A stretch of DNA of 33,971 nt from a virus. The stretch spans positions 1-33,971 of IMG/VR virus record IMGVR_UViG_3300020463_000064; one strand, given 5' to 3'. Below the pieces are notes generated by a model. It saw only the letters and a list, made by a program, of their open reading frames with translations. It was not told where the DNA came from and ran no database searches. Positions 3,410-24,136 of this stretch are shown here, piece after piece (position 1 is the first letter of the stretch; every line of letters begins with the position of its first letter). Both the position numbers and the translations under genes were made by a program.

Positions 3410-6400
3410 ATGACGGATATTAAAAGAGTAAAAATCTCTCACTTAATAGAATCTCAAATTCCTGAGTTCTTAAATCAGGAATCACCCCTATTCAAGAGTT
3501 TTTTAGAACAGTATTACGAATCACAGGAACACCAATCGGGTATGACCGACTTGGCCAGTAATCTGGCGGAGTATCGGAAGATTGGTGCGTTCAATGATGA
3601 GACACTTATAGCTTCTACAACCTTAACTCTTTCATGTTTTGCTGGTGATACTACTTTATCAGTTATATCCACAGATGGATGGCCTGATACTTACGGTTTG
3701 TTGAAAATTGACAACGAAGTAATTACATATACTGGAAAATCGGAAACTCAGTTCCTTGGCTGCGCTAGAGGATTCAGTGGTATAGATCAAATATCAAAAG
3801 AAGACGATGCTGAGTTTGCAAACTTTGCCGAAACCAGTGGTGCGGTTCATCTTTCTGGTTCTACAGTAACTAACTTAAGTAATCTTTTCTTACAAGAATT
3901 TTTTACTAAATTTAAAACAGAATTTTTACCTGGCTTTGAAAATAGAAGTTTTACAACTGGTACATCAATTACTAATGTGCTTACCAGAGCAAAAGACTTC
4001 TATATGGCAAAGGGAACCGATGCTTCATATAAAATTCTCTTCAAACTTTTGTATGGTGAAGAAATTGAACTTATAAAACCAATTGATAGAACATTAATTC
4101 CTTCAGATAATGTATATTTCAAAACTAAGCACGTTCTAGTTGAAAACTTGTTTGGTGGACAACCATTAGAGACTATTGGTAACTTCTTATATCAAGATAT
4201 CTCTGGAATTGGAACTGCGAGTGCTTCAATTTACAATGTAGAGTATAGACCAATCAATCAAGTTGATTTTTACGAAATATCACTTGACTCAACATCATTT
4301 GATGGATCTTTCCAAGTGCCTGGTAAAACAAAAGCACTTGAGATTACTCCAGCAGATGCAACTTCCCTTGTTGTTGACTCTACAGTCGGATTTGGACAAA
4401 GTGGCACACTTTTGATAAAACCAAGAGAAGGTGCTAACTTCCTAAACATCAGATATACCGATAAGACAGTAAACCAGTTTCTAAACGTCACTGGCATCAC
4501 AACATCTCTAATTTTCGGTGCAGATGTTCTTGAGAACAAACTTGCTTATTCTTATGCTGGATTTGGACAAACATCTTTACTACAATTCAGACTTGTCAAC
4601 GTTATTGATGAAGTAGACACTACTACATCATCAAATATGCAAATTGGGGATAGTCTTAAGTTACTTTCCTTTGGTAAAGATCTAGCAGATAACCCAAAGT
4701 TCAATAATTGGATATACAACGTACCTTCAAGTCATAATCTTGCCACAATCAGTCAAGTAAACGTCAATACCTTTAGAATTACGATATTTGACTTATGTGT
4801 TTTCTATGTTGATGAAATTTTAAAGTTAAGAAACGATCTTGGCGATGAAGTCAATATTACAGTCAAACAGATTGAGTATGATGCAACAAATACAGCGCAA
4901 GTTTACTCAAACACTATTGTTGTTCAAACTACTGGTGCTGTGCCCACCAATCCTTCTAAAATTACAAAAACAGTTACAAAGGCATCTCATAACTCAAATT
5001 ACTTTGCTGGTGTTGATCAGTTTACAGTTGGTATTCAGAATAGTTACATTGACAAAGAAGAAAAGTTCTTTTATGTATCATCATCTGGTCTACCTAACTA
5101 TCCTATCTTTGCAACTGATAATAAGGTATTCGTAAAGACTAGTTCTATTGAGGTTGTAGACGGATTTGGCACACCTTTACTTGGTGGTGGGTTTACTTAT
5201 ACCATACAGTCTTATGACCCCGCCTTTGACCCTGCCGCAGGGACTAGTTTGCTTCCACACAACTATGTGACTGGAGATAAGATTTATTGGGACAATACAG
5301 CTGATAGTGGTATCACAACTGGTATTTACTTTGTAACTAAGGTAAACCAAACTGACTTCTATCTTTCATTCAGTGGATCTGACGTATTTGCTCAAAAGTA
5401 CATTGCAGTTAAAACAGGAACAATTGGACAATACATTTATAAATCTGGTTGGGAGAATAAGACACTTAAGAATCAAAAAATTCTTAGAAAGTATCCTGTT
5501 ATTAAGGAAAAAGAATTATTTGATGATCCAAATAAAAGAGATGTTAATAATAGGCCTGTGGGACTTATGGCGAATGGTGTTGAACTATTCCCTCCTACTG
5601 TTTTCGATGAACAGATTTTCCACGGTGATCTTACAAGTATTACAGTTACAAACCCAGGCTCAGGTTATGATGTCATCACAGGGCCACCTTTACAAGTTTT
5701 AGATCAACAAGGATCAGGTGCAATTGGTTATGCAAACATATCTGGATCATTCAAAGAAGTTAAGTTAGTATCGCCAGGTATTGGATATCAAGATAAACCA
5801 AAAATTACTGTAAAAGGTGGTAATGGAAGTGGTGCTGTTCTGGAATCTAATCTAGTCAAAGGCAAGATCGTTGCTAACTTTAAAGCTGATGGTTCATCTG
5901 TCAATACGACTGATGAGAGTATTTCATTTGAAAACAGACATAACTTTGAAGTTGGTGAAGCAGTTGTTTATGATTCAAGAGGAAACACTCCAATTGTTAA
6001 CGTGGTTAGTGGATCGGTTTACTATGTTGCACCAGTAAATGAGACAAAGATAAAATTACACAATAAGCCAGAAGAAGCTAAGGTTGGTATCAATACTGTT
6101 AATATTGGAAACGTTAGTTTTGGTTTTCATAAACTTACTACAGTAAAGGCAAAGAATACAATAACCAAGATCTATGTAAAGGAAAGTGGTTCTGGGTATT
6201 CAAATAGAAAAGTTATTGTCCCTGCAAGACCTGTTAACGGAGACGTTCAATCTGGTATTAGTACATCTGACGATTATATACTGGCATATAACCATCACTT
6301 CAACAACGGAGAGATAGTTGAATATTCTACAACAGGAACAATTGCGTCTGGTCTTTCAACAACCACACAGTATGCCGTTAAGGTCATTGATCCTAACAGA

Positions 6401-9400
6401 TTTAGACTTTGTGATGTTGGGATTTCCTCACAAAGAAACTTTACGAATTATGACAAAAATAAACCCGCTGTAATTCGTGGATTGGGTAGTGGTAATCATA
6501 CTGTAAAGTATCCACCTATAGTAGTAAACATAGAGAGTTTATCTGGTATTGCCGTTACCACGGTCATCAAACCAGAGATTACACCTATAGTTCTTGGATC
6601 AGTTGAAAACGTTTACTTACAAGAAGGTGGTATTGGTTATGGTTGTACTAATATCATGGACTTCCAAAGAAGACCTGACGTTGGCATCTCTACAATTACT
6701 TTCAGAGCGTTATTGAAACCAATTATCATTGGTGGTTCTATAGTAGATGTTCAGATACTTGCCAATGGTAAAGGATATCGTGAAGATTCCGATATTGAAA
6801 TTACTAGTCCTACAGGAAGTTTTGCGGATGTAAGACCTATAGTTGTTGATTCTAGAATAATTGGTGTACAGATTCTCGATGGTGGTATTGGATATGGAAA
6901 GAGTGATACTACTTTACTTCTACAGAACAGAGGTAAGGATGCTAAGTTTATAGGTAATGTTCGAGAGTGGAAGATTAACCAAGTTCAAAAGAACGAAAAT
7001 ATTATTAATGTAGAAGATTCAGTACTTACAAAACCAAGTACAAACCCAGCTTTCCAATTACAAACTATTGGAATGTATCCTCCTCAAAAATTGAGATATC
7101 AATTAGGAGACAATATTGATTCAGCAAACTTAGAAACACCTAATGCTTTCCACTCACCAATATTGGGATATGCATATGACGGCAATCCAATCTACGGGCC
7201 ATATGGTTATCAGAACTCAGTAGGTGGTGCTATTATTAGACTTAGATCTGGGTATATCCTTGATACATCCGCTAGAGCAGGCCTCAGACCTCCTGGCTTC
7301 GCTTTTGGATACTTTGTCAATGATTATCTTTTTGACAACTCTGGCGACCTAGACACATACGGTGGTAGGTATTGTGTAACGCCACAGTTCCCAGATGGAA
7401 CTTATGCATACTTCTACTCTGTAGAGGTTGATTCTAGTGGTGTTGCTAAACCTAAGTTCCCATATATGGTTGGTAGTCAATTTAAAGACACTCCTATAGA
7501 AGAAAACTTTGTTACCTTCTTCAACCAAGATATTGATATTTCAAGTAGGAATGTAACAAGAAACATTGCTCCATACTACCTATCATACGGTAACTCTGAT
7601 TACGAACTAATTGATGATGTAAAAGATGCATTAAAACAAGAGTTTGAGGTCACTAAAACAAAGAGTGCTGGAATTACTTCCGTAACTGTATTTTCAAGAG
7701 GAGATGGTTATAAAATAGATGACCCTCTTACATTAGATAATAAAGGAACAAATGGAACTGGTGCTAATATTGTTGTAAGTGAATTATTAGGAAAAGAAAT
7801 AAACTCTGTTGACATCGGCATCAATACATTCAAAGATGCTTCATTAAGACTTGAAAAAAGAAATATTATTGGTATTACTTCTATACCACATGGTATTGCT
7901 GATGGCGAAACAGTCATATTGAGTGGTATTGACACATCTCAGTTTACAGAGTTCAATGGTTCTCAGAAAGTTCAAGTTATTAATAGATCAGTAGGTCTTG
8001 CTACCTTCGTAGACAACGTAACAAACACTGGAGTAAGCACACATCTCTTTGTAACTGATACAAGAGGTTTTAGTCCAAGTGATGTCATCGGAGTTGGAAC
8101 AGAATCTATGATTGTCACTGGCATTGATACATCCTTCTCTAGATTGCTTGTAAACAGAGAAAACTTTGTTGGTGCTGCAATGACACACCAAGCTGGCACT
8201 AACAACGTAGTATTAAAACCAAATCAGTTTATATTCCCTGTTGGAACCTCAACAGTCACTCAATTTACATTTGAAAATTATAAAACTTACTTCAATCCAC
8301 AAGAAACAGTTGGTGTTGGATCTACAGGAACACATTATGCAGTTACAGTAACTGGTTTTGGAACACAAGCAATTCAGACTGTAGAAAATCGTTTTGTACC
8401 TCAACAAAGAATATATCTTAAGGATCATAAGTTCTTTACTGGTCAGAAACTAGTTTATAACATGGGTATCGGTGGAACTTCACTTGTTTGGGCAAAAGTT
8501 TCTGCTGGTGCAACTTCTGGAGTAGGAACAGAGGTTCTTCCTGATGGGGATGTGTATGCCGTCAACTTTGCCAAGGATTATATTGGATTGGCTACTGTGG
8601 CATTCTCTACTGCTGCTGATGCGATATGGTTTTACAATGTAGCATCTAATTCTGGGTTTGCCCACTCTCTTACAACTGCATATCCTAAAGTATCAACTAA
8701 AGTAGAAAGATTCTTTGGGGAAGTTGGACTTGGTTCTGCTCATGGACTAGTAGCAGGCGATCTTATCAAACTTGAAGCTTTACCTAAGTCTACTGAATCA
8801 ACAGTTATTAGATATGACCCTGTTATTGCTAAAACTACAACAAAACGAGTTGGATTCACATATACAAGTTTCTCTCCCGACTTAACTCAAATAAACATTG
8901 CTGATCAGGACTTACAAAGTTATGATAAAGTAGTTTACTATGATAATGGCAACACAATCAATGGATTGATCAACAATGAGACATATTTTGTTCTTAGAGA
9001 AGATCCTGAGTCGATAAAACTCTGTAAATACAAATCTGATGTATTTGATTCCAATCCAGTTTCAATATCAACAGTAACCACTGCAAGTGCTAACAATTTA
9101 AGTTTCATTGCTAAGATTAACCCACCTCTATCTTTCACATCAGGTAATACAATCGTATTTGATGTATCAGATCAAAGTCTTCTTGATATGAGGTTGGATT
9201 TCTTTGGAGATATCACTTTCAACAATAGACTAGACGTTCAAGGCACAAATCTTGGTGGATTCAATATTACTAGGAGTGGTATTTCTGGAAACGCTAATTC
9301 TACAGTAACAATCAACACTGAAACTGAGTGGCCAAGAAAAACATTCTATGATCTAACTCCTGTTGTTCCATCAGACACTAGAAAGACATATGGTTCATCG

Positions 9401-12400
9401 GATACTGATGTAACGGGAAGAAACAACATAACATTCAGTGATATCGTTCTCAGAAACGAACATAGCGTTTTAATTAAGGATGATACTACATTTACATTCA
9501 ACTTAAAAGAAAAACCACTAGAATCTCAAAGATTTGTTTCTAGAGTTGGTGTAAGTACAATAACATACAGTACAACATCTCTTAATGCTAGAGGGCCTGT
9601 ATTTAAAACTAAAATCAACTTCCCAGGCAAAGGATATACGATTTTACCTAAAGTTATTGGTTTTGCAAGTACACAAGGCCAAGATGCTATTGTAAAAGTA
9701 TCATCTCCCGAAATTGGGCAAATTGACATTATTGAAAGAATCAAAGATGGATTTGACTACCCAACTGACCCAACTTTGCTACCATACTTAGCAGTTCCCG
9801 CTATAGTTGATATAAGTGGTATTTCAAGGATTGATCAAATTAAAGTTATTGATGGTGGAAAGAGATATAACCAACCACCTTCACTTGCAGTTCGTGGTAA
9901 CAGTAATGTACAGATTCTAGCACATTTATCTGGTGGATCTGTAGATAGAGTTGAAATTATCAAAAATGCGTTTGAGTTCAAAGAACCACTAAACATCATT
10001 ACAACTAATAACTCTAATGGTTATGATATTGATGCTATAAGTCATAGTGGTACTACAGTTACTGCTGAGTTACTATTAGATCAACAATTCAATCAACCAA
10101 TACAAACTGGATATGCTTCTACTGATATTAAACTACCATTTGCAGTTGGTGACAAAGTATTAGTTGAAGGATGTAGAATTAAACCAGCATCATTAGCAGT
10201 AGGTGAAGGCAACTTCAACTCATCTGATTATGACAACTCATTCTTTACAGTTACAGGTGTAAGCACAACAAACTCAACTGTTCAGTTCAGTATGTCAGAT
10301 GCGCCTGGAATATCCACTGTTACTTTGGGATCTTATGACGATGACTTTACATTAGGATCTATTGTTAATTTCAACGACATGGCGAAGTTTAATATGACTC
10401 TTATTAACGATGCCAAGTACTTATCTGGTGAGAAAGTAACATCTGCTAGATTTGAAGGAATTGTAGCTGAAAATGGTTGGAATGTCAATATTAACCAACT
10501 TAGATTAAGAGATACTATTGGAACTCTTTTACCAGGCGACACATTGTTTGGTGAAGTCTCTGAATTGAAAGGAGAAGTTAGAGATGTCAATAGATTCAGT
10601 GTAAACACTACTCTTGGAGTCACAAGAGATAAAGTGTCTAAGAATGACATGGAAGTTGGTATTCTTAACGACTTCAATCAAAGATTATCAGATAACTTCT
10701 ACTTCCAGAAGTTTTCATACTCAATTAAGAGTAATCTTCCATATACTACATGGAAAGAATCTGTAAAATCAATTGTTCACCCATCTGGATTCTTAGAGTT
10801 CTCAGATCTTGTTATTGAGAGTGATTCCAAAAAAGACGCCAATACTTTAAATCTAGTAAGCGTTGGAATCGCAAAATCAAATAATATGAAGGTTAAACCT
10901 GTTGACACTACAGTTAACCTTATATTGAATATTGATAATGAAATATTCATGGGTAAGAGAGATAACTTTGCGGTAGTAACCGAAGATGATGCTTTACCTG
11001 ACGGATCTGTACAAAGAATATTCTTCCCAGAAGGCAGACCAATTAAGAGTTTCATCATGAACAAAACCAACAAGGTTATATCAATAGATGATATTTCTTC
11101 TGGATTCACTGGAGAACATGATAGAACTGGTACATTAGTTGGAAGTAAACAGTTCCAATTAAGAACGAATGGAAGACCAGCGTTTAAGAAGTCATACGAT
11201 GCATCTGATTCTGCCATCGTTAATACTACTTTGAATGTAATATCAATTCAGAGTCATGACTTCCAAACTGGACAAGTAGTAAATCTTGATACTCAAGGTG
11301 GATCTAAGATTGGAATAGGAACTACATCATACACAACAGGAACTAAAGACATCATTATGTCAGTGGTTACATCTGGTGTTGGTGGAAGTGCGATGTTTGA
11401 AAATGGATATAATGTTCAAATTCCAGGCCCAGTAACAGGAACTGCTGTTACACAGAATCCTCCAGGCGCAGTGTTCACAGTGTTTGGATTTGGTAGTGTT
11501 GATGGTGGTTTGCCTGGAATTACTACTGGAAATGGTACTGGAGCAAGATTCCAAGTTAAGTTTGACTTTAATCCGACCACTGGACAATGTATATCTACCG
11601 CTGTTGTTCTAATTAGTGGTGGTAAAGATTATATTGTTACTGATAATGTAAGTATTGCTGGTACATATCTTGGTGGTGCAACTCCAGCCAACAACTTGAC
11701 ATTCCCTGTTACAAAAACAACAGGATCTAGAATTGGTATACAAACAACATATAGTAACGTTCCATCCACAAACAATGGTTCTGGATCTGGTGCAAGATTC
11801 AATGTCACTAGAGATTCTAACTTAGATGTCTCTCTTGTTGGTGTAGTAACTGGTGGAACTGGATATGCTTCAACCAACGTTGTTTCTATTTCGGGAACAC
11901 ATATTGGTGGTACAACTCCAACCAATGATATTGAATTGACTCCTGTAGAATGTGGAACAGATGTTATGCCTAATGAATTATTTGTTCAGAAGGTTGATGA
12001 TGTAAACTTCCGAGTTGCTGGTCTATCTACATCATTACCATTTGTCTTTACTGGATTGGGAACTGGTACTCACCTACTCAAAGTTCAAGATCCAAATAAA
12101 CAGGCCTTGATCATGATTGATAATATTATTCAGACACCAGTGACAAATAAACTTCTAAATGTTGAAGTAACGGAAGCTATTGGTGAAACTGGTGAAAACA
12201 TCGTAGTTGGTGCTGGTATTGGATCACTATCGAAAGGTGATGTTCTGAAAGTTGATGATGAGTTCCTCAAAGTACAACAAATAGGAGAAGCAACATTTGC
12301 ACAAGCAAAACAAGCGATTGCAAATAAAGTTGTTGACAACAATTTCTACTATGATACTAAGAGAGTTAACTCAAATGTGTTGAATGTAGATACAACATCT

Positions 12401-12430
12401 GCTACTATGGATGACAACCCTCCATATTAA
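3410..12430 (+). CDS. 7: Giant gp7-like baseplate wedge protein with YHYH domain, 3006 aa
   Basis: T4 gp7 is 1032 aa. Two blocks match its C-terminal third from memory: KDFYMAKGTDASYKILFKLL at about residues 195-214 (T4 DFYSTKGIEASYKFLFKVL), and SIKSNLPYTTW...VHPSGF at about 2438-2461 (T4 KIKSNLPSSRW...VHPVGF). Between them lie about 2,200 residues: several GGxGY-type units, HGxxxG-type units and a YHYH domain at about 1220-1345 with ILGYAYDGNPIYGPYGY and RYCVTPQFPDGTYAYF. Residues about 98-125 (LKIDNEVITYTG, then a C-A-R-G turn) form a module seen elsewhere in the cluster. T4 gp7's own N-terminal two thirds are not recognisable. The start abuts the gp6 stop without a Shine-Dalgarno, suggesting coupling. 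It should extend the wedge outward; what the added domains do is unknown. Confidence 0.82.
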   Translation: MTDIKRVKISHLIESQIPEFLNQESPLFKSFLEQYYESQEHQSGMTDLASNLAEYRKIGAFNDETLIASTTLTLSCFAGDTTLSVISTDGWPDTYGLLKIDNEVITYTGKSETQFLGCARGFSGIDQISKEDDAEFANFAETSGAVHLSGSTVTNLSNLFLQEFFTKFKTEFLPGFENRSFTTGTSITNVLTRAKDFYMAKGTDASYKILFKLLYGEEIELIKPIDRTLIPSDNVYFKTKHVLVENLFGGQPLETIGNFLYQDISGIGTASASIYNVEYRPINQVDFYEISLDSTSFDGSFQVPGKTKALEITPADATSLVVDSTVGFGQSGTLLIKPREGANFLNIRYTDKTVNQFLNVTGITTSLIFGADVLENKLAYSYAGFGQTSLLQFRLVNVIDEVDTTTSSNMQIGDSLKLLSFGKDLADNPKFNNWIYNVPSSHNLATISQVNVNTFRITIFDLCVFYVDEILKLRNDLGDEVNITVKQIEYDATNTAQVYSNTIVVQTTGAVPTNPSKITKTVTKASHNSNYFAGVDQFTVGIQNSYIDKEEKFFYVSSSGLPNYPIFATDNKVFVKTSSIEVVDGFGTPLLGGGFTYTIQSYDPAFDPAAGTSLLPHNYVTGDKIYWDNTADSGITTGIYFVTKVNQTDFYLSFSGSDVFAQKYIAVKTGTIGQYIYKSGWENKTLKNQKILRKYPVIKEKELFDDPNKRDVNNRPVGLMANGVELFPPTVFDEQIFHGDLTSITVTNPGSGYDVITGPPLQVLDQQGSGAIGYANISGSFKEVKLVSPGIGYQDKPKITVKGGNGSGAVLESNLVKGKIVANFKADGSSVNTTDESISFENRHNFEVGEAVVYDSRGNTPIVNVVSGSVYYVAPVNETKIKLHNKPEEAKVGINTVNIGNVSFGFHKLTTVKAKNTITKIYVKESGSGYSNRKVIVPARPVNGDVQSGISTSDDYILAYNHHFNNGEIVEYSTTGTIASGLSTTTQYAVKVIDPNRFRLCDVGISSQRNFTNYDKNKPAVIRGLGSGNHTVKYPPIVVNIESLSGIAVTTVIKPEITPIVLGSVENVYLQEGGIGYGCTNIMDFQRRPDVGISTITFRALLKPIIIGGSIVDVQILANGKGYREDSDIEITSPTGSFADVRPIVVDSRIIGVQILDGGIGYGKSDTTLLLQNRGKDAKFIGNVREWKINQVQKNENIINVEDSVLTKPSTNPAFQLQTIGMYPPQKLRYQLGDNIDSANLETPNAFHSPILGYAYDGNPIYGPYGYQNSVGGAIIRLRSGYILDTSARAGLRPPGFAFGYFVNDYLFDNSGDLDTYGGRYCVTPQFPDGTYAYFYSVEVDSSGVAKPKFPYMVGSQFKDTPIEENFVTFFNQDIDISSRNVTRNIAPYYLSYGNSDYELIDDVKDALKQEFEVTKTKSAGITSVTVFSRGDGYKIDDPLTLDNKGTNGTGANIVVSELLGKEINSVDIGINTFKDASLRLEKRNIIGITSIPHGIADGETVILSGIDTSQFTEFNGSQKVQVINRSVGLATFVDNVTNTGVSTHLFVTDTRGFSPSDVIGVGTESMIVTGIDTSFSRLLVNRENFVGAAMTHQAGTNNVVLKPNQFIFPVGTSTVTQFTFENYKTYFNPQETVGVGSTGTHYAVTVTGFGTQAIQTVENRFVPQQRIYLKDHKFFTGQKLVYNMGIGGTSLVWAKVSAGATSGVGTEVLPDGDVYAVNFAKDYIGLATVAFSTAADAIWFYNVASNSGFAHSLTTAYPKVSTKVERFFGEVGLGSAHGLVAGDLIKLEALPKSTESTVIRYDPVIAKTTTKRVGFTYTSFSPDLTQINIADQDLQSYDKVVYYDNGNTINGLINNETYFVLREDPESIKLCKYKSDVFDSNPVSISTVTTASANNLSFIAKINPPLSFTSGNTIVFDVSDQSLLDMRLDFFGDITFNNRLDVQGTNLGGFNITRSGISGNANSTVTINTETEWPRKTFYDLTPVVPSDTRKTYGSSDTDVTGRNNITFSDIVLRNEHSVLIKDDTTFTFNLKEKPLESQRFVSRVGVSTITYSTTSLNARGPVFKTKINFPGKGYTILPKVIGFASTQGQDAIVKVSSPEIGQIDIIERIKDGFDYPTDPTLLPYLAVPAIVDISGISRIDQIKVIDGGKRYNQPPSLAVRGNSNVQILAHLSGGSVDRVEIIKNAFEFKEPLNIITTNNSNGYDIDAISHSGTTVTAELLLDQQFNQPIQTGYASTDIKLPFAVGDKVLVEGCRIKPASLAVGEGNFNSSDYDNSFFTVTGVSTTNSTVQFSMSDAPGISTVTLGSYDDDFTLGSIVNFNDMAKFNMTLINDAKYLSGEKVTSARFEGIVAENGWNVNINQLRLRDTIGTLLPGDTLFGEVSELKGEVRDVNRFSVNTTLGVTRDKVSKNDMEVGILNDFNQRLSDNFYFQKFSYSIKSNLPYTTWKESVKSIVHPSGFLEFSDLVIESDSKKDANTLNLVSVGIAKSNNMKVKPVDTTVNLILNIDNEIFMGKRDNFAVVTEDDALPDGSVQRIFFPEGRPIKSFIMNKTNKVISIDDISSGFTGEHDRTGTLVGSKQFQLRTNGRPAFKKSYDASDSAIVNTTLNVISIQSHDFQTGQVVNLDTQGGSKIGIGTTSYTTGTKDIIMSVVTSGVGGSAMFENGYNVQIPGPVTGTAVTQNPPGAVFTVFGFGSVDGGLPGITTGNGTGARFQVKFDFNPTTGQCISTAVVLISGGKDYIVTDNVSIAGTYLGGATPANNLTFPVTKTTGSRIGIQTTYSNVPSTNNGSGSGARFNVTRDSNLDVSLVGVVTGGTGYASTNVVSISGTHIGGTTPTNDIELTPVECGTDVMPNELFVQKVDDVNFRVAGLSTSLPFVFTGLGTGTHLLKVQDPNKQALIMIDNIIQTPVTNKLLNVEVTEAIGETGENIVVGAGIGSLSKGDVLKVDDEFLKVQQIGEATFAQAKQAIANKVVDNNFYYDTKRVNSNVLNVDTTSATMDDNPPY
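11528..11955 (+). repeat. Two-copy GGxGY module duplication near the C-terminus of the gp7-like protein
   Basis: Copy 1 begins at GTGARFQV and contains SGGKDYIVTDNVSIAGTYLG followed by GATPANNL. Copy 2 begins at GSGARFNV and contains GGTGYASTNVVSISGTHIG followed by GTTPTNDI. The two are colinear and about 80 residues apart. This is a diverged tandem duplication visible at protein level. Confidence 0.75.
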
Positions 12431-12463: not shown

Positions 12464-13486
12464 ATGTCTAAACAAGGGATTAGTACTGGTTCTGCTCCGA
12501 ATGACGGCACAGGTGATACCCTGTTGGCTGGAACCATCAAGATTAATAATAATTTTAACGAGATATATGATACTTTCGGAGACGGTACTAATCTTGTAAG
12601 TTTTGTTTCCTTCGCTTCTACAGCGGGTTATTCAACAAATGCTGGTATTGCATCGACATCTGTTCTTGCTGGTATGGCATCTAGTGTTACTGGTAATATT
12701 GATATCAATACATCTGGTGTTGTTACTTCAAGTTATGCAGACATTGGTAAGATAACAATTCAACAGCCAGGTGCAATTACAGATGGCCCTATTGAAGTTG
12801 GAACTGCATCAACAATGTTTCGTATCAAAGCGGACGGTATGGTCGGTATTGGGACATCACTTCCTACCTCTCAATTAGAAGTTGCATCATTCTCAAATGA
12901 AAACCCAACTATTTGGGCAGTTGCAAAAGGAAATGGATATGGATTGCGAGTATCTGATGGTGCAATAACAGATAATAAGTCATTTGTAGTTACCAACGAA
13001 GCATATACTGGTATTGGATCTACTTCCCCAACATGTAGATTGGATGTACAGGGTGACGTTCTGGTCAGTGGTGCTAGTACCCTGATGGATCAGGTTAACT
13101 TTAACTCCGATATTACAGAAAAAGTTGTAGGAAACTACAGTGATGTTATGAGTGTAAGTGCAGGCGGTACATTTACTATTGATGTTTCACAAGGATCTGT
13201 AGTATGTGGTGTTGCAACGACATCTATCAGTTCATGGGCATTTACAAATGTAAGTGGACAGAACAGTAAAGCAACCACAGCAACACTTATCATCAATGCT
13301 GGGGTTGGGTATACTTACGGTGATCCAGTCACAGTTAACGGAGCATCTATTGCCGCAGGGGTTAAATGGGTTGGAGGTAATCCACCACCTTCCACTGCAA
13401 ATGATGATATATTAACGTTTAGTATAATACGAGATAGTACTGGTGTTACCAGAGTTTATTGTTCAAGTTCTATTAACATTAGTTGA
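12464..13486 (+). CDS. 9: gp9/gp10-type baseplate wedge-tail fibre connector
   Basis: The 340-aa product compares with 288 aa for T4 gp9. The N-terminus (GTGDTLLAGTIKINNNFNEI, ending YDTFGDG) matches the motif shared by T4 gp9 (TGDILFDGGNKINSDFNAIY) and gp10 (GTGDYLRKGGIKINENFDELY). The middle carries two fibre-type segments, VGIGTSLPTSQLEVA at about 126-140 and GIGSTSPTCRLDVQG at about 178-192, typical of trimeric tail fibres. The C-terminal domain (TATLIINAGVGYTYGD, then ILTFSIIRDSTG and VYCSSSINIS) resembles the gp9 C-terminus, which docks long tail fibres. It should be a trimer on the wedge holding fibres. It has its own late promoter, and its stop overlaps the ribosome-binding site of the next gene. 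gp9 is preferred over gp10 because of length and C-terminus. Confidence 0.7.
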   Translation: MSKQGISTGSAPNDGTGDTLLAGTIKINNNFNEIYDTFGDGTNLVSFVSFASTAGYSTNAGIASTSVLAGMASSVTGNIDINTSGVVTSSYADIGKITIQQPGAITDGPIEVGTASTMFRIKADGMVGIGTSLPTSQLEVASFSNENPTIWAVAKGNGYGLRVSDGAITDNKSFVVTNEAYTGIGSTSPTCRLDVQGDVLVSGASTLMDQVNFNSDITEKVVGNYSDVMSVSAGGTFTIDVSQGSVVCGVATTSISSWAFTNVSGQNSKATTATLIINAGVGYTYGDPVTVNGASIAAGVKWVGGNPPPSTANDDILTFSIIRDSTGVTRVYCSSSINIS

Positions 13487-13499
13487 GGAAACAGAGTAA

Positions 13500-16400
13500 A
13501 TGCCAAGAACTACGCCTGGACAAGGAGTTCTACTAAGACCAACTTTTAACTCTGTTTATGGAGTAACCAATATAGAGGTTTTAGCGGGAGGAGCAGGCTA
13601 CGCACAAACAGATCCACCCAAGATTACAATAGAGGGCACTGCGACCCCTAGTGTAGAGGGAGTCTTTTACCCTAAAATATCTGGGATTGGGACAGTATCC
13701 GAAATTATTGTATTTAAAACTGGTGCTGGATATTTTCCAGTATTCAACCAATCAGAACAATCTGGTGTTGTTGTAGAAAGGGGTGCATTTGGAACTATAG
13801 CAACTAGTCATAGTTCTGCTGGTATTGCATACTCTGTATTTTCTGGTGATTACAATATTGTTGACGATAATATAATTTTTACTGATGCACCTTATGGTAA
13901 AGCTGGCCCTGCTGGATTACAGACTAACTCTTCATTTTCTGGGAGATTATTCTCTAGAAAATTAGATCCTTATGATGAAAAAGATAAAAACGTAATTTTA
14001 GATGACATATCATTAGAATTTACAGGTATTGCAGGTACACAATTTAGTTTATCAGAAAACACTGGTGTTGTAACATCACTTTATAACAGTGTAAACACAG
14101 GTGTAGACATAAACAATAATCCGTTCATTTTAATCAACAATATTGTTCAGACGCCAGGATTAGATTTTGAGGTTGTAGATAATACATCAAATAAACTTAA
14201 CTTCTTAAGTGGAGTTCCAAGATCAGGTAGACTCTCTAAGGTTGGACTACAAACTGGTTCTGGTTACTACTTACCAACAAAAGCAGCAGTTAGAGTTGGT
14301 GTTGGTTCTACTGGTAGTCTTGAACACATTCAGATAGAAGGTAAGGGACAAGGTTATAGAACAATACCAGAAATTACAGTCAGGGCATCTCAAGGTTATG
14401 GTGCAAGTATTACTGCATTTTTAGGCGAATCATCAACAACGAGTGTTGCAATTTCTACTGCAACTTATAATCATATTTCTGGTGTTGCTACATTTACAAC
14501 TGGCAGTGCTCATGGATTTGAAATTGATGACAGAGTAAGAGTCACAGGTGCTGGATTTACATTCGCTCCAGTATCTGCTGCAAGAAATATAGGTTCATTT
14601 GGTTACGATTATATTACTGGTATTGCAACCGTTCAAGTTTTTGGTGGCCATTACATTGGTACAGGTAAAAATCAAAGTAGAAACTTACTTATAAAAGAAG
14701 TTCAAGTTACAGAAGGCATATCCACTTTCTTATTCAGAGAAGATGGATACCCGATTGTAAGTATTGGTAGTACTCAAATAGTAACAGTCATGGCTGGTGT
14801 AGGTACACAACCATTGACATATGTTAGTGGAGGTCTAGTACAAGCTGGTATTGATACTGGAATCATGGATGGCAGAAACGTCACAGGTTTCGACTTAATA
14901 GGAGCAACTGCAAATACCTTCAAAGCGTTTATTGGAATAACAACTTATGCACATAATTACGTTGGTGGTGGTGTTGTAAACCGAGCAGAAGCTGGTATTA
15001 TCACAAACTTCAGTATTGTAGAAGGCGGAACTGGTTTCTATGCTCCAAAACATATTGAACATATCAATCAAAACCCTCCAACTGGTATCACAACAATTAC
15101 TGCTGTTGGTGATAAAGATGGTGATTCTAAGAATATAGCTGCGTTAGATTATGATAGTGGATCTGGTATTGCAACTATCACTGCTGCAAGTGCTCATGGA
15201 TTGACAACTTCAAATGTTGTTAAGTTATCTGGCATTGCATTTAGTACAGGTATTGGAGATATCATCTTCCCATCTGATACTCAAAAATACTTTGGTGTTA
15301 CAGGTATTAGTAGTACACTGAACTTTACCATCAATATTGGTATTGCAATGACTACTACTGGTATTCATACTGCAAATGTTGGATCTGGTATTGGTTCATA
15401 TATTCCATACAAAGGTCATGGACTAGAGACTGATGATTTTGTTCAGACAACAGGTATTGCGGTTACATTTACGAGTGCTCCTGCTGTTCAAGTTGGTCAT
15501 GTTGAGTATGATGAGTCATCTGGTATTGCAACAGTCACTACAAGAAAAGATCATAACCTCACAGAAGATGATTGTGTTGTTCTTTCTGGTATTGCATTTA
15601 CTTGCGACTATGACCCTGCCCTAGGCGTTTCTAGTGCATTATATGATAACACAACTGGAGTTCTAACTGTCACTACTGCCGCACCTCACGGCTACAAGGT
15701 AGGTAAAGATGTTATTCTAACTGGTCTTGCATTTACATGTGCCATAGACAATGGTGCAAAAGATCACTACTACCCAAGAAGTAGATCAACCGCATACGAT
15801 ACTTCTATTCCAATTGTAGGTTATTCTGGAACTGCACTTGAGATAGATGTTGGTATATCTCGTGTTAAGAATCAATATATCCATAGATTTGAAGAGGCAA
15901 CAGCTGGTGCTTTGGTGTATGGTGGAGATTATCCTCACTTATTCCTTCGTGCAGAAGAAGGTGCATTACTAACTGGTGGCCCATTCCTACATGAGTTCCA
16001 CAGTGCAACCGCAACATCAACATTTGCTGGTGGTGATTATGCACATACTTACGCTGGTTCTGATGATGCAACTATCAAAGTCGGTGGTGATTATGCACAT
16101 CAATTTGTTGCTTCTGAAACTATAGCTGATTCAATCTCTATAGTTGGAGGAGGAACAACTACACCAACAAATGCAGATTACTTCCCTGCTACAGGATCAT
16201 TAATACTGACAGTTGCAAATCATGGTCTATCAGGCCCTACACAACACTCAATAACAACTGCTAATTACAACCCTCTTGCTGGTATTATGACTGTGACTAT
16301 TCCTAGTCATGGTTTCTCAAATGGTGATGAAGTTAAAATTGCAGATGAATCTATAGGTTGGAAGTGTTCATTAGACCAATTTACAGCAACCAAATATTAT

Positions 16401-19400
16401 CCAAGATCCACAGATCCTATTAGTGATTCATGGCTACCCATATCAAACAAGACAGACGACACCTTTGAAGTATTTGCTGGTATTACCACTAGATTAGATT
16501 ACACAGTCTCTGGTGCGGACTACACCCCTTCTGTGGGTGTGATGACAATGAGTATTGGAACTCATGATCTAACAACTGGACAAAGTATTAAGTTTAGAGA
16601 TAGTTCATTAGGTTTTTCATGTACTGCTGACCAAAATACTGACACCAAATATTATCCAAGATCTAAAGATCCAGTTTACAATACTGCTGTTGCAATCACA
16701 GGTGTTGCTGGAACTACAATTACTGTCAACGTTGGTATATCAACAATAGTCAACTATAACATTAGATTTGCTGACTATACACCAGCATCAGGTATTATGA
16801 CCGTTTCTGTTGACAGAAATCATGGTTTCCAATCTGGCGAATCAATCAAGTTCAAGCCTGGATCTGTTGTATTCAAGTGTGATCAAGACGGATTCCAAAC
16901 TAATCATTTCTATCCAAGACCACAAGATCCTTACTATGATAAACCAGTTACTCTTGTTAGTGCTGCTGGTACTATCTTTACAGTCAATGTAGGGCCTACA
17001 ACATCATCCAATATCTATCAATTCTTACCTAATCAGGGTGTTGCTGTTGATGGTGTGATATCTGGTGGTGACTATCCATATACACTAGTTGGTGTTGGAA
17101 CTGATGCAGTGATTACTGGTGGTGGAGATTACACCCCATATGTGTATGTTTCATCAAATGCAAATAACGTTCAAAGACCATCACAAAAAATAGGCATTGC
17201 TACTGGTGGATTATCATTCAAGTGTGCTAAAGATAACTATGCAACTATTCATGCATATCCTCGTCCTACAGACCCTGCACATAACGTTAATTTAGGAATC
17301 ATATCAGCAACAACAAATACCTTTGAAGTTAGAGTTGGTGTATCCACAATAGCAGAAAGATCTATCTCAACATCCACCTACAATGCTGGAACAGGTCAAC
17401 TGACAATGACAGTGGGAGCTGGACACAGTTACACTGCCCCAAGTCTCCACACAATTTCGACGGCAACGTATAATGCTAGTACTGGTGTACTAGAACCAAC
17501 CATTGCAAATCATGGTTTCGTTGCTGGTGAATATGTTAAATTTGATTTGGAATCAATTTCATTCAAATGTGATCTAGATGGATATACTGCAACTAAGGCA
17601 TATCCAAGATATTCCGATCCATACCTTAACAAGTGGTTATCAATATACAACGTTGGTGTAAACACTTTCTCTGTATTTGTTGGTGTATCTACTATTGTAA
17701 ATGCACATATATTCCAAAGTGCAACTACTGGTGGTTTGAAGAAGGCAACTGATACAGTTGGAATCAATACTGCATCTATTAGATTTACATGTGCTAGAGA
17801 TAATTTCACAACAGAACACGCATATCCTCGTCCTGATGATCCTATTGGTGGTAATGTATCTGTTGGTATCGGATCAACCTCTGCAACTACACTGACTATC
17901 AATGTGGGTGTATCTACAATAGTCAACTATGGTATTACTACTGCAGCATACACTGCAAATACAGGTATCATGACTGTATTCTCGAACGTTCATGGATTCA
18001 ACGGTTCGTACACTAAAAACGTAGAATTTGCAACTTACGATGCTGGATCTGGCATTATGACTGTGACATCTGCTGGACATGGGATGGTTACTGGTAATAG
18101 AGTTCAATTTGAAAGAGACTCTATAAGATTCAGATGTAAGATGGATGGCAGAAAAACAATTAAGAGTTATCCAAGAAGAAAAGATCCATCTGATCAAAAA
18201 TGGTTGTCAGTCACAACTGTTGATCTTGATAAGTTTACTGTTAACGTAGGAACTTCGCCTCTCGTTAACCATACTCCTACAAGTGGATCATATGATCCGT
18301 TTTCTGGATTGATGACTATTGATATTGGGTCTCATACACTTAAGAAAGGAACTTCTGTCAAGTTAAAAACAAATGGATTTAAATTTACTTGTGCCTTAGA
18401 TAATCATGCGACATTCCACTACTACCCAAGAAAGAGTGGATTGAATGGCCCAGACCCTGCTTACAATACTGCTGTTAAGATCACTTCTACAACAGATACT
18501 ACAATTACTCTGGATGTAGGAACATCATCTAATCAAACTGCACACATACTTGTTTCTGCTGTCAATAATGCAGTTATCAGTGGTGGTAATTATATTCACA
18601 CATTTGAGAACGCAAAACTTGGTGGAATGTTGATTGCTAGGGATACTCTTGGTCTTGCAACAGATTCATATACATGGAGATGTTCTCAGGACAACTATGC
18701 CACAGATCACACATATCCTAGAAGCACTGACCCAATACACAATGTAGAAGTTGGTGTTGTTACTTCTACTACAGATACATTCACAATTAACGTAGGTATT
18801 ACATCTAGAGTTAAGTTCAATGTAACCAATGCAACTTATGATGCAAACAGTGGACTGGCAACGATAACTACTGACTCATCACATGGATTGTCAACTACAA
18901 CATCAGTAGGACTGGTGACAGGTGGATTGATTTATTCATGTTCAATGGATCAATATGCAACAGAGCATCCATATCCTAGAACTACAGACCCTGCACATAA
19001 CTCTGCATTATATCCAACTGCGGTCACATCAAATAATATTACTCTTAATGTTGGTGTTTCTACTAGAGTTGCATATAATATTAACCATGCAGACTACCAT
19101 GAGTCTATAGGTGTCATGACAGCATTCTTGCCAGTTGTTCATGGTATTACTACTGCTGCTGGAGTTGGTAGAAATGTTAAATTGGAAACTGAGTCAATTC
19201 TATTCTCATGTTCTCAAGATAACTATACTACAAAACAATTCTATCCAAAGGGAGGAGACCCTTACTATAATGGTTCACTAATTACCAGAGTTCTCAGTAA
19301 TACTCAGATTGAAACTCAGGTGGGCCCATCTACTACACCTAGTTTCTACAACTCTGGTGGTAAGATCCAAGGTGTTATTCTCGCACCTAGACTTATTAAT

Positions 19401-22400
19401 AATTCTCTTAGTGGAACTGACTTTGCTGCTGGTGGTACATTTGTTGATAAGATTATTGATGGTAAAACATATGTCGTTAATGTTGGTATTTCTACTGTAG
19501 ATCACAACTATGCTAGAGCTGGAATTTCACAGGCTGGTAAGAGAATTGCATCTTCCATAGAACAAGGATTCTCAGGATTTGATGTAGTAGAAAAAATAGA
19601 TGCTGCAAACTTTAGAGTCAATGCTGGATTATCAACTCAAGTCGCCTTGTATAAGAGAGGTGGTGAAGTTACTAAACCAGTATATGTTGATATTGTAGAA
19701 CCAGATGGATATTTCAATAGAAGTCTAGAATATGTTTCTGGCACTAGTGGAGTTGGAACAAATGCAAAGGCAGACTTCCGTATCAATGTTGATGGTAACA
19801 TTGCTGAGTACGCTATCCTAGAAGAGGGAACAGGATTTAAAGTTGCTGACAAACTTACAATCAGTGGTATTGCAACAGACCCAAGAGTCGGTGTACTAAC
19901 AGAATTCCAATTAACAGTTGAAGAATTACAGAACGATAGTTTCTCTGGATTCTATCCTGGCCAATTTATCCTGTTTGATGACATTGCACCATTCTTTAAT
20001 GGTAGTCGTAAGAAGTTTACTCTATCAGTAACAACTTCTGGTAATACTGAAATACTAAGTCTCAAGACTCAGCCTGGTAGTGATATGGATATTACAAATA
20101 ATATCTTCATCTACATCAATGATATCTTACAGACACCTGGCTCATCATACACTTACAAAGGTAGTAGAGTAATCTTTAGTGAGGCACCAAAACCAAATTC
20201 TAAGTGTGCTGTATTCTACTATAGAGGATCAAAGAGAGACGTTGAGACTGTGGATCCAATTTCAACCTTGAAACCTGGCGATACTGTTCAGATCAAAGAG
20301 AATAAGTTTGATGTTACCGACATAGATCAGTTTGAAAGAACAAGTAAGAGAATTGTTGCTTCTGATCTTCTTGAGACATTTACATACGATAGTATTGGAA
20401 TCAATACAGCACAGGACGCAGATAGACCTCTAGCATGGGAGAAACAGAAGGGAGATCAAATTCTTTCTGGTGTATTGATATCTAAAGCAAGACCTAGTTT
20501 GAAGAGTAAGATTCTTCCTACAACTAGATTAATTAAGAATCTTGGTAAGACTGATGATGTAATTTATGTTAATAACGTATTCCCATTATTCACTAACATT
20601 GATAAGTTAATCCAGTCCGAAAGAAATATTCAGATATTTGATGATGCTGAGATTCTACCAGGCGTCGTAACTTCTATTGTTTCTACATCTTCTAGTATAT
20701 CCTCACTAACTGTTAGTTTTGGTGGTACTGGATATCAGAACCTACCAAATCCAAATGTTGCAATATCAAGTGCTTTAATCAAACGTAAAGACCCAATCAA
20801 GAACTGGAGATTTGATGGAATTAGTGGTATTATTCAACTTGTTGAATTTAAGGCAATCACACAACAAGAACCAATAGTTGCCGTAGGTTCAAGTAGTTAC
20901 TATATGAATACTAAGAGTGGTACTTTCTGGGAGAGGGGACAGATTGGATTTGGTAATACTGTTCAGTTCAATGGTGTAGGTGTTGGATACTCTTCTTCTA
21001 GTATCAGTAAGTATGTTATGGCTGTTGGTGATGGTGGTTCAATGGCAAGATCAGTCTCTATAGGTAACAGTCTTTCTAGTTGGGACGTTATTGATCTAAA
21101 AGAGAAGAGAACTATCCCTGCAATCAACCAAACAAATACCTTTGATAGTACATACATTGGAAGTTTCAAAGATGTAGTTTGGGAACCTTCTATTGATACA
21201 TGGGTTGCAGTCGGTGCTGGTGGATCTATATTTACTGCGGTTGGTCTTACAACAGCTGAGGCATTCAGTCAGTTCTCTGGAAGTTTAGAAACTTTAAATT
21301 CAGTTGCATTTGGTCAGGGTGAATTTATTGCAGTTGGTGGTGGCGGTGCTGTCATCGCTTCTAATGATGGTTTGATATGGTCAGACAAAGTAAGTAATAC
21401 TGTTCAAGATATAAATGATGTCATCTTTGATGGTAGTAAATTCATCTATGTTGGTAACAACGGAACAATTGGTATCTCTACTAATAAAAACTTCTGGCAA
21501 CCTTGGAGTCAACAGTTGCCTGCTGGAACACTGCACCCTGCAACATTTGATTTCAAGAATATTAAATACTTCAATAACTTCTATATTGGTATTAGTACAG
21601 TCGGTAAGATGTATTATTCATTCGATTTGGCTAACTGGAATGAAAGATTGATAGATCAATCAAATGAAATTCGTGATCTTGCTAATACTACCTTCGGTGA
21701 TTTTAATAGTACTAGAATCATCGCAGTTGGAAGTGCAACAACTCAGTTCTATGCAGACCCAGCCATCAACAGGGCAACTGCTAGTGCGTCTGTGACTTCT
21801 GGAGTAATCACATCAGTCACTGTGACCGATGGTGGATTTGGTTATGATGTTGGTAGTTCACCTCCAGTTATAGTTCAATCTGATAGAACTAAGAAGGAAG
21901 ATGTATTCTCAGTTAATGCAAGAGGTGACTTTGGTGATATTGTAGGAATAAATACATCGATGCCTGGTTCTTCTACTAGATTACCTAAATTAGAATTTAC
22001 TCTTAAATCTCAATTTAACGACAACACAAACTTAGGTTATGGTTATTCTTCACTAAATGCTCTTGGAGTCAACTTTAGTGGATTGCAAAAAGGAGATTTC
22101 TTTACTATTTTCGATAGTCCTCTACTTGTTGGACACGCACTTACTGGTATTACAACTTCTTCTGGATCAAACGTTGCTGTAGGAATGGTCACATCTGGTG
22201 ATTATCTAGGTGGAACATTCCGAGTAGAGGAAGTTACTGGAGCTGGTGATGCAGTTTCTGGACTTACTACTGTAACATGTTCATTCTTACCTGGCCCTGT
22301 AACTTTTGGAAATAATCAAATCCAAGTGGGTCTTGCTGGAACTTCAAATGTTGATACCTTCTGGGGTAGATATAGTTGGGGTCAAGTCTACGGTTATCAG

Positions 22401-22540: not shown

Positions 22541-24136
22541 ATGCCTGCTATTATATCCGAACAGTTTAGAATTCTAAATGCCGAAACCTTTGTGAAAAGT
22601 TTTGTCGGAGTCGGATCTACTGTCAACAAATATTATGCGTTCATGGGATTACCCAATTCTATTGAACCAAAGGCAGGCGGTACTGCCACATGGGCCACTA
22701 ACACCCCTGCACCTTTAGATGGATTTGAAGAAGAGTACTCTATCAAAGAGTCCATCATTGCAATGAAAAAGGTTACGGACAAAGATGTTCGTAGACTTGT
22801 TAGAAAAGTATCATGGGTTGCTGGAACAACTTATGAGATGTACAGACATGACTATAATATTTACAATCTTACACCAATTACTTCACAGGGTAGTTTGTAC
22901 GAGGCAAATTACTACATAGTGAATGAAGACTTGAAAGTTTACGTTTGTCTGCAAAATGGATCAGACCCTGAGAACCCAAAGGGAAGGCCTTCATATGACC
23001 AACCCACATTTGTTGACCTTGAGCCAAGGGCAGCTGGCACTAGTGGCGATGGTTACGTTTGGAAATATCTTTATACAATTAAACCATCAGAAATCGTTAA
23101 ATTTGACTCTATTGAATACATACCTGTGCCCGAGAACTGGGGAAAGGAAGGCGAGACTATTGCAACAAAGGCTAATGCTATAGATGGAAAAATCGAAGTT
23201 GTGGTTGTTGATAATAGAGGTTCTAACTATCAACCAATCTCTACATCTTTTGCCAATGTTCCAATTTTGGGAGATGGATCAGGAGGAAAGGCAACAATTA
23301 CAGTTGATTCTTTCGGAAAGGTTTCTGAAGTATTTGTCACCGATGGAGGGGAAGGATATACCCACGGATCAATACAGTTCTTCCCAGGCGCTCCTGGCAG
23401 TGAGTCTGGCGGTGTTCTTGCTAACCTTACCAACACTGGAATAGGAACAACATCATCTGCTGGATTTAGTGTTATAATTCCACCCAAGGGTGGCCATGGA
23501 CATGATGTTTATAGAGAACTTGGTGCATATAGAGCTCTTTTATATTCTAGATTTGAAACGATTGAGACTAACCCTGATATTATTGAAGGTAACGACTTTG
23601 CTAGGGTTGGACTAATAAAAAATCCCACAGTATTCGGTAGTAGTACAGAATTACTAGACACTGCAATGGTGAGTGGATTGAAGGCAATTAAGATGGCTGG
23701 TGTAACAACAGGAACGACATATTCTGTTGACTCTGAGATTACACAGACAGTTGGTGTTGGATCGACTGCAATTGGATATGTCGCATCATGGGATAAAGTG
23801 ACTGGTGTGTTGAAGTATTATCAACCAATGGGTCTTGCATCTAGTGAAACTGGATACAAGATAATACCATTTACTGCAGCACCTGATGCTGGATATGGAC
23901 TGACTATTAATGGATCATCCGTAACAGGTTCTTTATTATCTGTTGATACTGCATATAACGGTGTCAGTACCTCAATAAATAATAAAGTCTATCAACTTGG
24001 TATGAGTTTTAGTGCTGGTATTTCATCAGCAGAATTCAATACTAAGTCTGGTGAAATAATCTATATTGATAATAGGACTGCGATCCCTAGATCTGCCAGT
24101 CAGAAGGAAGACATCAAAATAGTGCTGGAGTTTTAA
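22541..24136 (+). CDS. 8: Baseplate wedge protein gp8, enlarged
   Basis: The 531-aa product compares with 334 aa for T4 gp8. N-terminal EQFRILNAETFVKSF resembles T4 SKFRTEKMLNFYNSI; GDGYVWKYLYTI at about 169-180 matches T4 GDGYVWEYLFEI, followed by EYIPVPENW (T4 EYIVVPWPEE). The C-terminus GEIIYIDNRTAIPRSA...EDIKIVLEF matches T4 GEMIYMENRPPI...EEINILFTF. The extra length is mostly an insertion after about residue 210 carrying two GGxGY-type units (VVDNRGSNYQPIS and VTDGGEGYTHGS). gp8 dimers sit in the wedge next to gp7 and gp10 in T4. It has its own late promoter but no clear Shine-Dalgarno. The next gene starts 6 bases after its stop. Confidence 0.9.
   Translation: MPAIISEQFRILNAETFVKSFVGVGSTVNKYYAFMGLPNSIEPKAGGTATWATNTPAPLDGFEEEYSIKESIIAMKKVTDKDVRRLVRKVSWVAGTTYEMYRHDYNIYNLTPITSQGSLYEANYYIVNEDLKVYVCLQNGSDPENPKGRPSYDQPTFVDLEPRAAGTSGDGYVWKYLYTIKPSEIVKFDSIEYIPVPENWGKEGETIATKANAIDGKIEVVVVDNRGSNYQPISTSFANVPILGDGSGGKATITVDSFGKVSEVFVTDGGEGYTHGSIQFFPGAPGSESGGVLANLTNTGIGTTSSAGFSVIIPPKGGHGHDVYRELGAYRALLYSRFETIETNPDIIEGNDFARVGLIKNPTVFGSSTELLDTAMVSGLKAIKMAGVTTGTTYSVDSEITQTVGVGSTAIGYVASWDKVTGVLKYYQPMGLASSETGYKIIPFTAAPDAGYGLTINGSSVTGSLLSVDTAYNGVSTSINNKVYQLGMSFSAGISSAEFNTKSGEIIYIDNRTAIPRSASQKEDIKIVLEF

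Follow-up and report, generated by a model that had tools for sequence, protein, structure and literature searches.

Organisation of the P0001 locus

The window analysed here, a 33,971-base IMG/VR record, encodes a giant protein, P0001, along which a module with a single cysteine and a YPR motif recurs many times. The questions raised by this locus are what kind of module this is and what such an array does in the phage. Our preferred reading, to which we assign a probability of roughly 0.6, is that P0001 is a baseplate-anchored rod of beta domains of a T4-like marine cyanophage, which serves as a spacer and is followed by a propeller-like C-terminal part.

By megablast, the window is 79% identical over 25 kb to the Synechococcus phages S-SSM7 (Kyanoviridae, Lipsvirus) and S-SSM6a. 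It contains a baseplate operon made up of gp25, gp6, P0002, P0004, P0001, gp8 and P0003 (2506 aa) together with smaller structural genes (Table 1). Apart from its place in this operon, P0001 matches PHROG 2885, 701 and 5342, which are giant baseplate/tail proteins of Kyanoviridae (E 2.5e-152 to 8e-113). S-SSM7 SSSM7_103 (ADO98169, named "gp7") has the same 12 units at nearly the same spacings in the same operon, with about 75% amino-acid identity to P0001. The N-terminus of P0001 matches Syn9 gp103 and P-SSM4 082 (43% for residues 1-81, 37% for residues 1-107), which are labelled baseplate wedge subunit, putative fiber. Near the C-terminus, recurring aVGxgGxI..S.dG..W motifs suggest a beta-propeller, and sequence searches with this stretch gave no Pfam and no PDB match.

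Table 1. Features of P0001 and its neighbours, in window coordinates.
Feature	Position	Strand	Evidence or remarks
P0002 (3006 aa), YHYH domain (residues 1248-1339) and actual gp7 resemblance	3410..12430	+	PF14240 2e-16; T4 gp7 E=0.0014
P0004 (340 aa), gp9/gp10-like baseplate-tail fibre connector	12464..13486	+	phrog_677 E=5.7e-34
P0001 CDS, 3001 aa	13500..22505	+	orthologue of S-SSM7 SSSM7_103 (annotated gp7); 76% identity over array, synteny
P0001 N-terminal ~107 aa, probable baseplate anchor	13500..13820	+	common to Syn9 gp103, P-SSM4 082
Partial unit, first strands only, without Cys/YPR (residues 319-355)	14457..14564	+	20.9 bits
Partial unit without Cys/YPR (residues 550-582)	15147..15245	+	20.8 bits
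Partial unit with FTC, without YPR (residues 669-705)	15504..15614	+	23.5 bits
Unit 1 (Tyr 758; YPR without DP)	15633..15884	+	102 bits
Four GG-D/P-Y/F-x-H-x-F/Y repeats between units 1 and 2	15921..16136	+	exact 18-residue period; GG at 808, 826, 844, 862
Unit 2 (Tyr 967)	16257..16511	+	118 bits; AF2 model
Unit 3 (Tyr 1052)	16512..16766	+	121 bits; AF2 model
Unit 4 (Tyr 1138)	16767..17021	+	120 bits
GGDY-type insert of 34 aa separating units 4 and 5, distinct from the SGxxTVT..HG cassette	17022..17123	+	pLDDT mostly <50
Unit 5 (Tyr 1253), alternative N-terminal half	17124..17369	+	102 bits
Extra 30-aa hairpin cassette YNAGTGQLTMTVGAGHSY	17370..17459	+	gap between HMM matches; strands E205-209/E214-218
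Unit 6 (Tyr 1368)	17460..17714	+	116 bits
Unit 7 (Tyr 1442), short N-terminal half (74 spacing)	17715..17939	+	92 bits
Extra 29-aa hairpin cassette YTANTGIMTVFSNVHGF (HMM match 1481-1511)	17940..18026	+	15 bits; strands E395-399/E404-408
Unit 8 (Tyr 1557)	18027..18281	+	115 bits
Unit 9 (Tyr 1642; 5-aa insertion before DP)	18282..18548	+	109 bits
Unit 10 (Tyr 1739), alternative N-terminal half	18567..18827	+	108 bits
Unit 11 (Tyr 1825)	18828..19085	+	115 bits
Unit 12 (Tyr 1915; YPK)	19083..19355	+	106 bits
P0001 C-terminal stretch (residues 2434-2770), recurring aVGxgGxI..S.dG..W blades	20799..21809	+	propeller-like by eye
P0005, gp8 baseplate wedge	22541..24136	+	phrog_438 E=9.6e-161; T4 gp8

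A twelve-unit array with quantised spacing

The first-pass annotation had placed the tyrosines of twelve YPRxxDP modules at the residues given in Table 1, with successive spacings of 209, 85, 86, 115, 115, 74, 115, 85, 97, 86 and 90, and all of these positions and spacings are exact. Twelve homologous units are indeed present, but the strict YPRxxDP motif is found in only nine of them: unit 1 reads YPRSRSTAYD, unit 9 reads YPRKSGLNGPDP and unit 12 has YPK rather than YPR. Because these three units deviate, the strict DNA pattern C..D.......YPR..DP finds nine copies, as compared with none in 100 shuffles. The single cysteine per module is without exception: every one of the 12 units has it exactly 11 residues ahead of the tyrosine, and the units together account for 12 of the 16 cysteines of P0001. 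The relaxed pattern C.{10}YP[RK] occurs 12 times in P0001 (mean 0.0015 and maximum 1 in 2000 residue shuffles), and a unit HMM recovers 12 full domains of 87-117 bits in one scan (92-121 bits in that of Table 1) plus partial copies.

The quantised spacing also extends beyond P0001. Among the matches listed, 88 of 347 non-redundant spacings in the mined relatives fall at 85-87 residues, with further peaks at 59-61, 73-77, 113-117 and 143-145. The shortest form of the unit in these relatives is about 59 residues long, the DP...VNVG half being missing.

Predicted fold of the unit and the hairpin cassettes

In a two-unit AlphaFold2 model based on 105 related segments (mean pLDDT 89.4), each unit is predicted to be a beta domain, so that the motif appears as part of a folding unit. 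The first copy has seven strands (E2-6, E11-15, E26-28, E34-37, E46-49, E60-62 and E70-74), most of which recur in the second unit, and there is one short helical turn just C-terminal of the unit cysteine. In a 520-residue model covering units 4-8, the elements of the two-unit model recur. The succession of such domains would form a rod, although their placement relative to one another is weakly determined in the models (pTM 0.58 and 0.43).

The roughly 30 additional residues of the 115-residue spacings had been ascribed, in at least two cases, to one extra SGxxTVT..HG unit. This applies to two of the three such gaps: between units 5 and 6 and between units 7 and 8, the 520-residue model shows an additional TGxxTVT..HG hairpin that resembles unit strands 1-2. 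The third gap, between units 4 and 5, is instead filled by the GGDY-type insert, which is modelled at low confidence. The related proposal of interchangeable cassettes around an invariant module holds in part, in that some copies are free-standing extra hairpins, but usually the cassettes are not separate parts. In the standard 85/86-residue unit, the TGxxTVT..HG half is predicted to belong, as its opening strands, to the one domain that also carries the cysteine and YPR, and in some units this half is replaced by another short element.

Distribution and conservation

The array is not confined to this genome. Searches by tblastn found it in 330 phage records and the unit consensus in 329, and all of these records bear the names of Synechococcus or Prochlorococcus phages, of cyanophages or of uncultured marine viruses. 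A DNA pattern search for the unit, with an extra Thr included in the pattern, identified at least 120 viral-contig stretches and 24 genome-contig stretches, 20 of the latter with an HMM-confirmed unit above 60 bits. Unit-bearing bacterial contigs appear to be phage sequence within the assemblies. The one compared, a 188 kb contig of a Nonlabens xiamenensis assembly (NZ_RMVE01000006.1), matches cyanophage P-TIM40 at 98.7% identity over 8 kb and is nearly as long as that phage; it is probably a cyanophage genome that remained in the assembly of a bacterial isolate. Three further unit-bearing stretches (L133, L136 and L144) lie on one 189 kb contig, QCLS01000003.1, filed as Prochlorococcus AG-418-C09, which is probably the phage of an infected Prochlorococcus cell.

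Mining of these sequences yielded, among the matches listed, at least 986 distinct full units, which a 60% identity level reduces to 352 representatives. Within this same set, conserved residues of the representatives include Cys (99%), Pro (99%), Tyr (93%), Arg (92%) and Asp-Pro (93/83%), as well as Asp42 (87%), His20 (84%) and His48 (68%). Among the matches listed, Cys precedes Tyr by 11 residues in 1314 of 1336 cases.

Comparison with known families and folds

The lack of a match to any named domain noted at first sight was confirmed by searches of Pfam, NCBIfam and PDB, none of which gave a significant match: NCBIfam returned nothing for P0001, and PDB sequence searches with P0001 or its units nothing significant. 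PDB sequence matches to an antibody, iota-carbonic anhydrase and CTP synthase were set aside as weak, local chance similarities, and Foldseek matches to alphavirus glycoproteins were dismissed at a TM of about 0.1. The units do match PHROG 1276, 5342, 701 and 18802 (best E 1e-10 to 1e-15), and the whole of P0001 matches PHROG 2885; all five are large clusters of whole cyanophage structural proteins that give the unit neither a domain definition nor a function. A search of predicted viral structures had giant cyanophage structural proteins as its significant named matches. In the literature searched, which lay mostly outside subscription journals, we found no paper describing the YPR domain, and literature searches gave no virion mass-spectrometry or cryo-EM evidence for P0001.

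Two known folds come near the unit. E1_FCCH (PF16190; PDB 2v31, 4p22) has in common with it a TGxxTV..HGxxxGdxV strand-turn-strand, and the match excludes the Cys/YPR element of the unit. The E1_FCCH scores (28.8 bits for P0001 and 24.7 for the relative L198) lie below the gathering cut-off of 29.5, and the alignment to P0001 spans only profile positions 3-25 of 70, that is, the HG..GD turn. Aligned by hhalign with human UBA1 FCCH, whose sequence was verified against PDB, the unit profile gave a probability of 6% over 17 columns, and 1 of 100 shuffled controls scored higher. Foldseek comparison of the 520-residue model with FCCH structures gave probabilities of 0.89-0.97 at E about 0.04-0.11 (for 2v31: probability 0.97, E 0.11, TMt 0.46, rmsd 7.7). 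The other is the beta barrel of phage endosialidases (PF12195; phi92, K1F): the phi92 endosialidase is the top Foldseek match to the unit models, with a low TM-score, and End_beta_barrel has weak Pfam matches in 8 of 110 homologous two-unit segments (best E 4.7e-5) and none in P0001 at E<=1. These resemblances hint at a common small-barrel fold, not at membership in either family.

Proposed role of the array and alternative explanations

We propose that P0001 is a structural protein at the periphery of the baseplate, that its N-terminal ~107 residues probably anchor it in the baseplate wedge, and that the middle of the protein would be a rod of 12 copies of an 85-residue, seven-stranded, single-cysteine "YPR domain" with optional hairpins between them. 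The C-terminal part, including the propeller-like stretch, would thereby be held out at the end of the rod, at a distance that depends on how many units and hairpins there are. In each domain, the buried core and turn most likely consist of the conserved Cys, Asp, Tyr-Pro-Arg and Asp-Pro. The YPR unit is undescribed as a domain, and it is an ordinary kind of phage structural device. A broader proposal, which we hold only tentatively and at less than even odds, is that the units form a beta-domain family not described before, derived from small barrels of the FCCH/endosialidase type and marked by the cysteine, which marine T4-like cyanophages use as interchangeable rod segments, with discrete additions of units or 29-30-residue hairpins and the movement of whole arrays between baseplate proteins tuning the reach of those parts that contact the receptor.

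The main rival to the spacer rod is that the units are weak glycan- or surface-binding modules and the array a multivalent adhesin for reversible contact with the cyanobacterial surface. Phage endosialidases are among the best structural neighbours, the End_beta_barrel matches described above point the same way, and one unit-bearing ORF (L142) also has a LamG-type lectin domain. We nevertheless consider this reading unlikely, given that the structural matches are weak (E 0.0007-0.2, TM <0.3) and that the most conserved residues (Gly, Pro, Cys, Asp) look structural. Moreover, the array evolves no faster than the rest of P0001: its dN/dS relative to S-SSM7 is 0.19, like that of the remaining protein, the propeller-like part being highest at 0.24, and the array is thus not a hypervariable surface. 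The near-invariance of the cysteine at its fixed offset from Tyr, together with the conservation of His20, Asp42 and His48, would also suit a metal site or an inter-chain cross-link that locks the rod. This is a still less probable explanation, as His48 is replaced by Lys in 21% of the units among the matches listed and His20 also varies, with no compensating ligand seen, so that a constant set of ligands is not evident. Covariation of the candidate ligands was tested and did not support a metal site, and a disulphide within the unit is excluded by its having only one cysteine.

The annotation of S-SSM7, in which the orthologues of both P0002 and P0001 are called gp7, would make P0001 a second copy of this baseplate wedge initiator, and its position between gp6 and gp8 would fit this. 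We regard this as highly improbable. P0002 matches T4 gp7 over one short stretch (residues 192-221 against 729-758, E 0.0014), whereas P0001 gave no match to T4 gp7 (0 hits in the PDB sequence search), and the N-terminus of P0001 groups with another wedge protein, Syn9 gp103. From sequence comparison, then, P0002 and not P0001 is likely the gp7 counterpart, and the gp7 name of SSSM7_103 is not supported. T4 gp7 itself is reported to appear absent from cyanomyophages, with VrlC in its place (PMC7029224).

The practical consequence of defining the YPR domain is that these giant proteins could be parsed: the unit is present in ~330 sequenced cyanophages, where the proteins that carry it go under the labels hypothetical, structural, gp7 or tail fiber. 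Such a definition would also put right the gp7 label that S-SSM7-like phages carry twice, and the unit count would offer a measure of length to set against host range and particle images.

Evolution of the array

The number of units varies, from 7 in Sf-FS3 to 12 or 18 in close relatives, the 18-unit form being a protein of ~3630 aa. Unit n matches unit n among the window, S-SSM7 and the relative L195, and in L198 the correspondence extends to unit 10. Within the 18-unit form, the 79% identity between units 11 and 14 suggests a duplication inside the gene. In P-SSM4 and Syn9, P0001-type units lie inside the giant protein at the gp7 position (11 units in P-SSM4 gp7 and 1 in the 6076-residue Syn9 gp101, which adjoins gp6), together with a C-terminal segment that is likewise homologous. 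The array is thus part of the gp7-type giant itself in these phages, whereas P0001 is a separate downstream gene. As the N-terminus of P0001 matches a separate wedge protein, this arrangement indicates that the array has moved between neighbouring baseplate genes.
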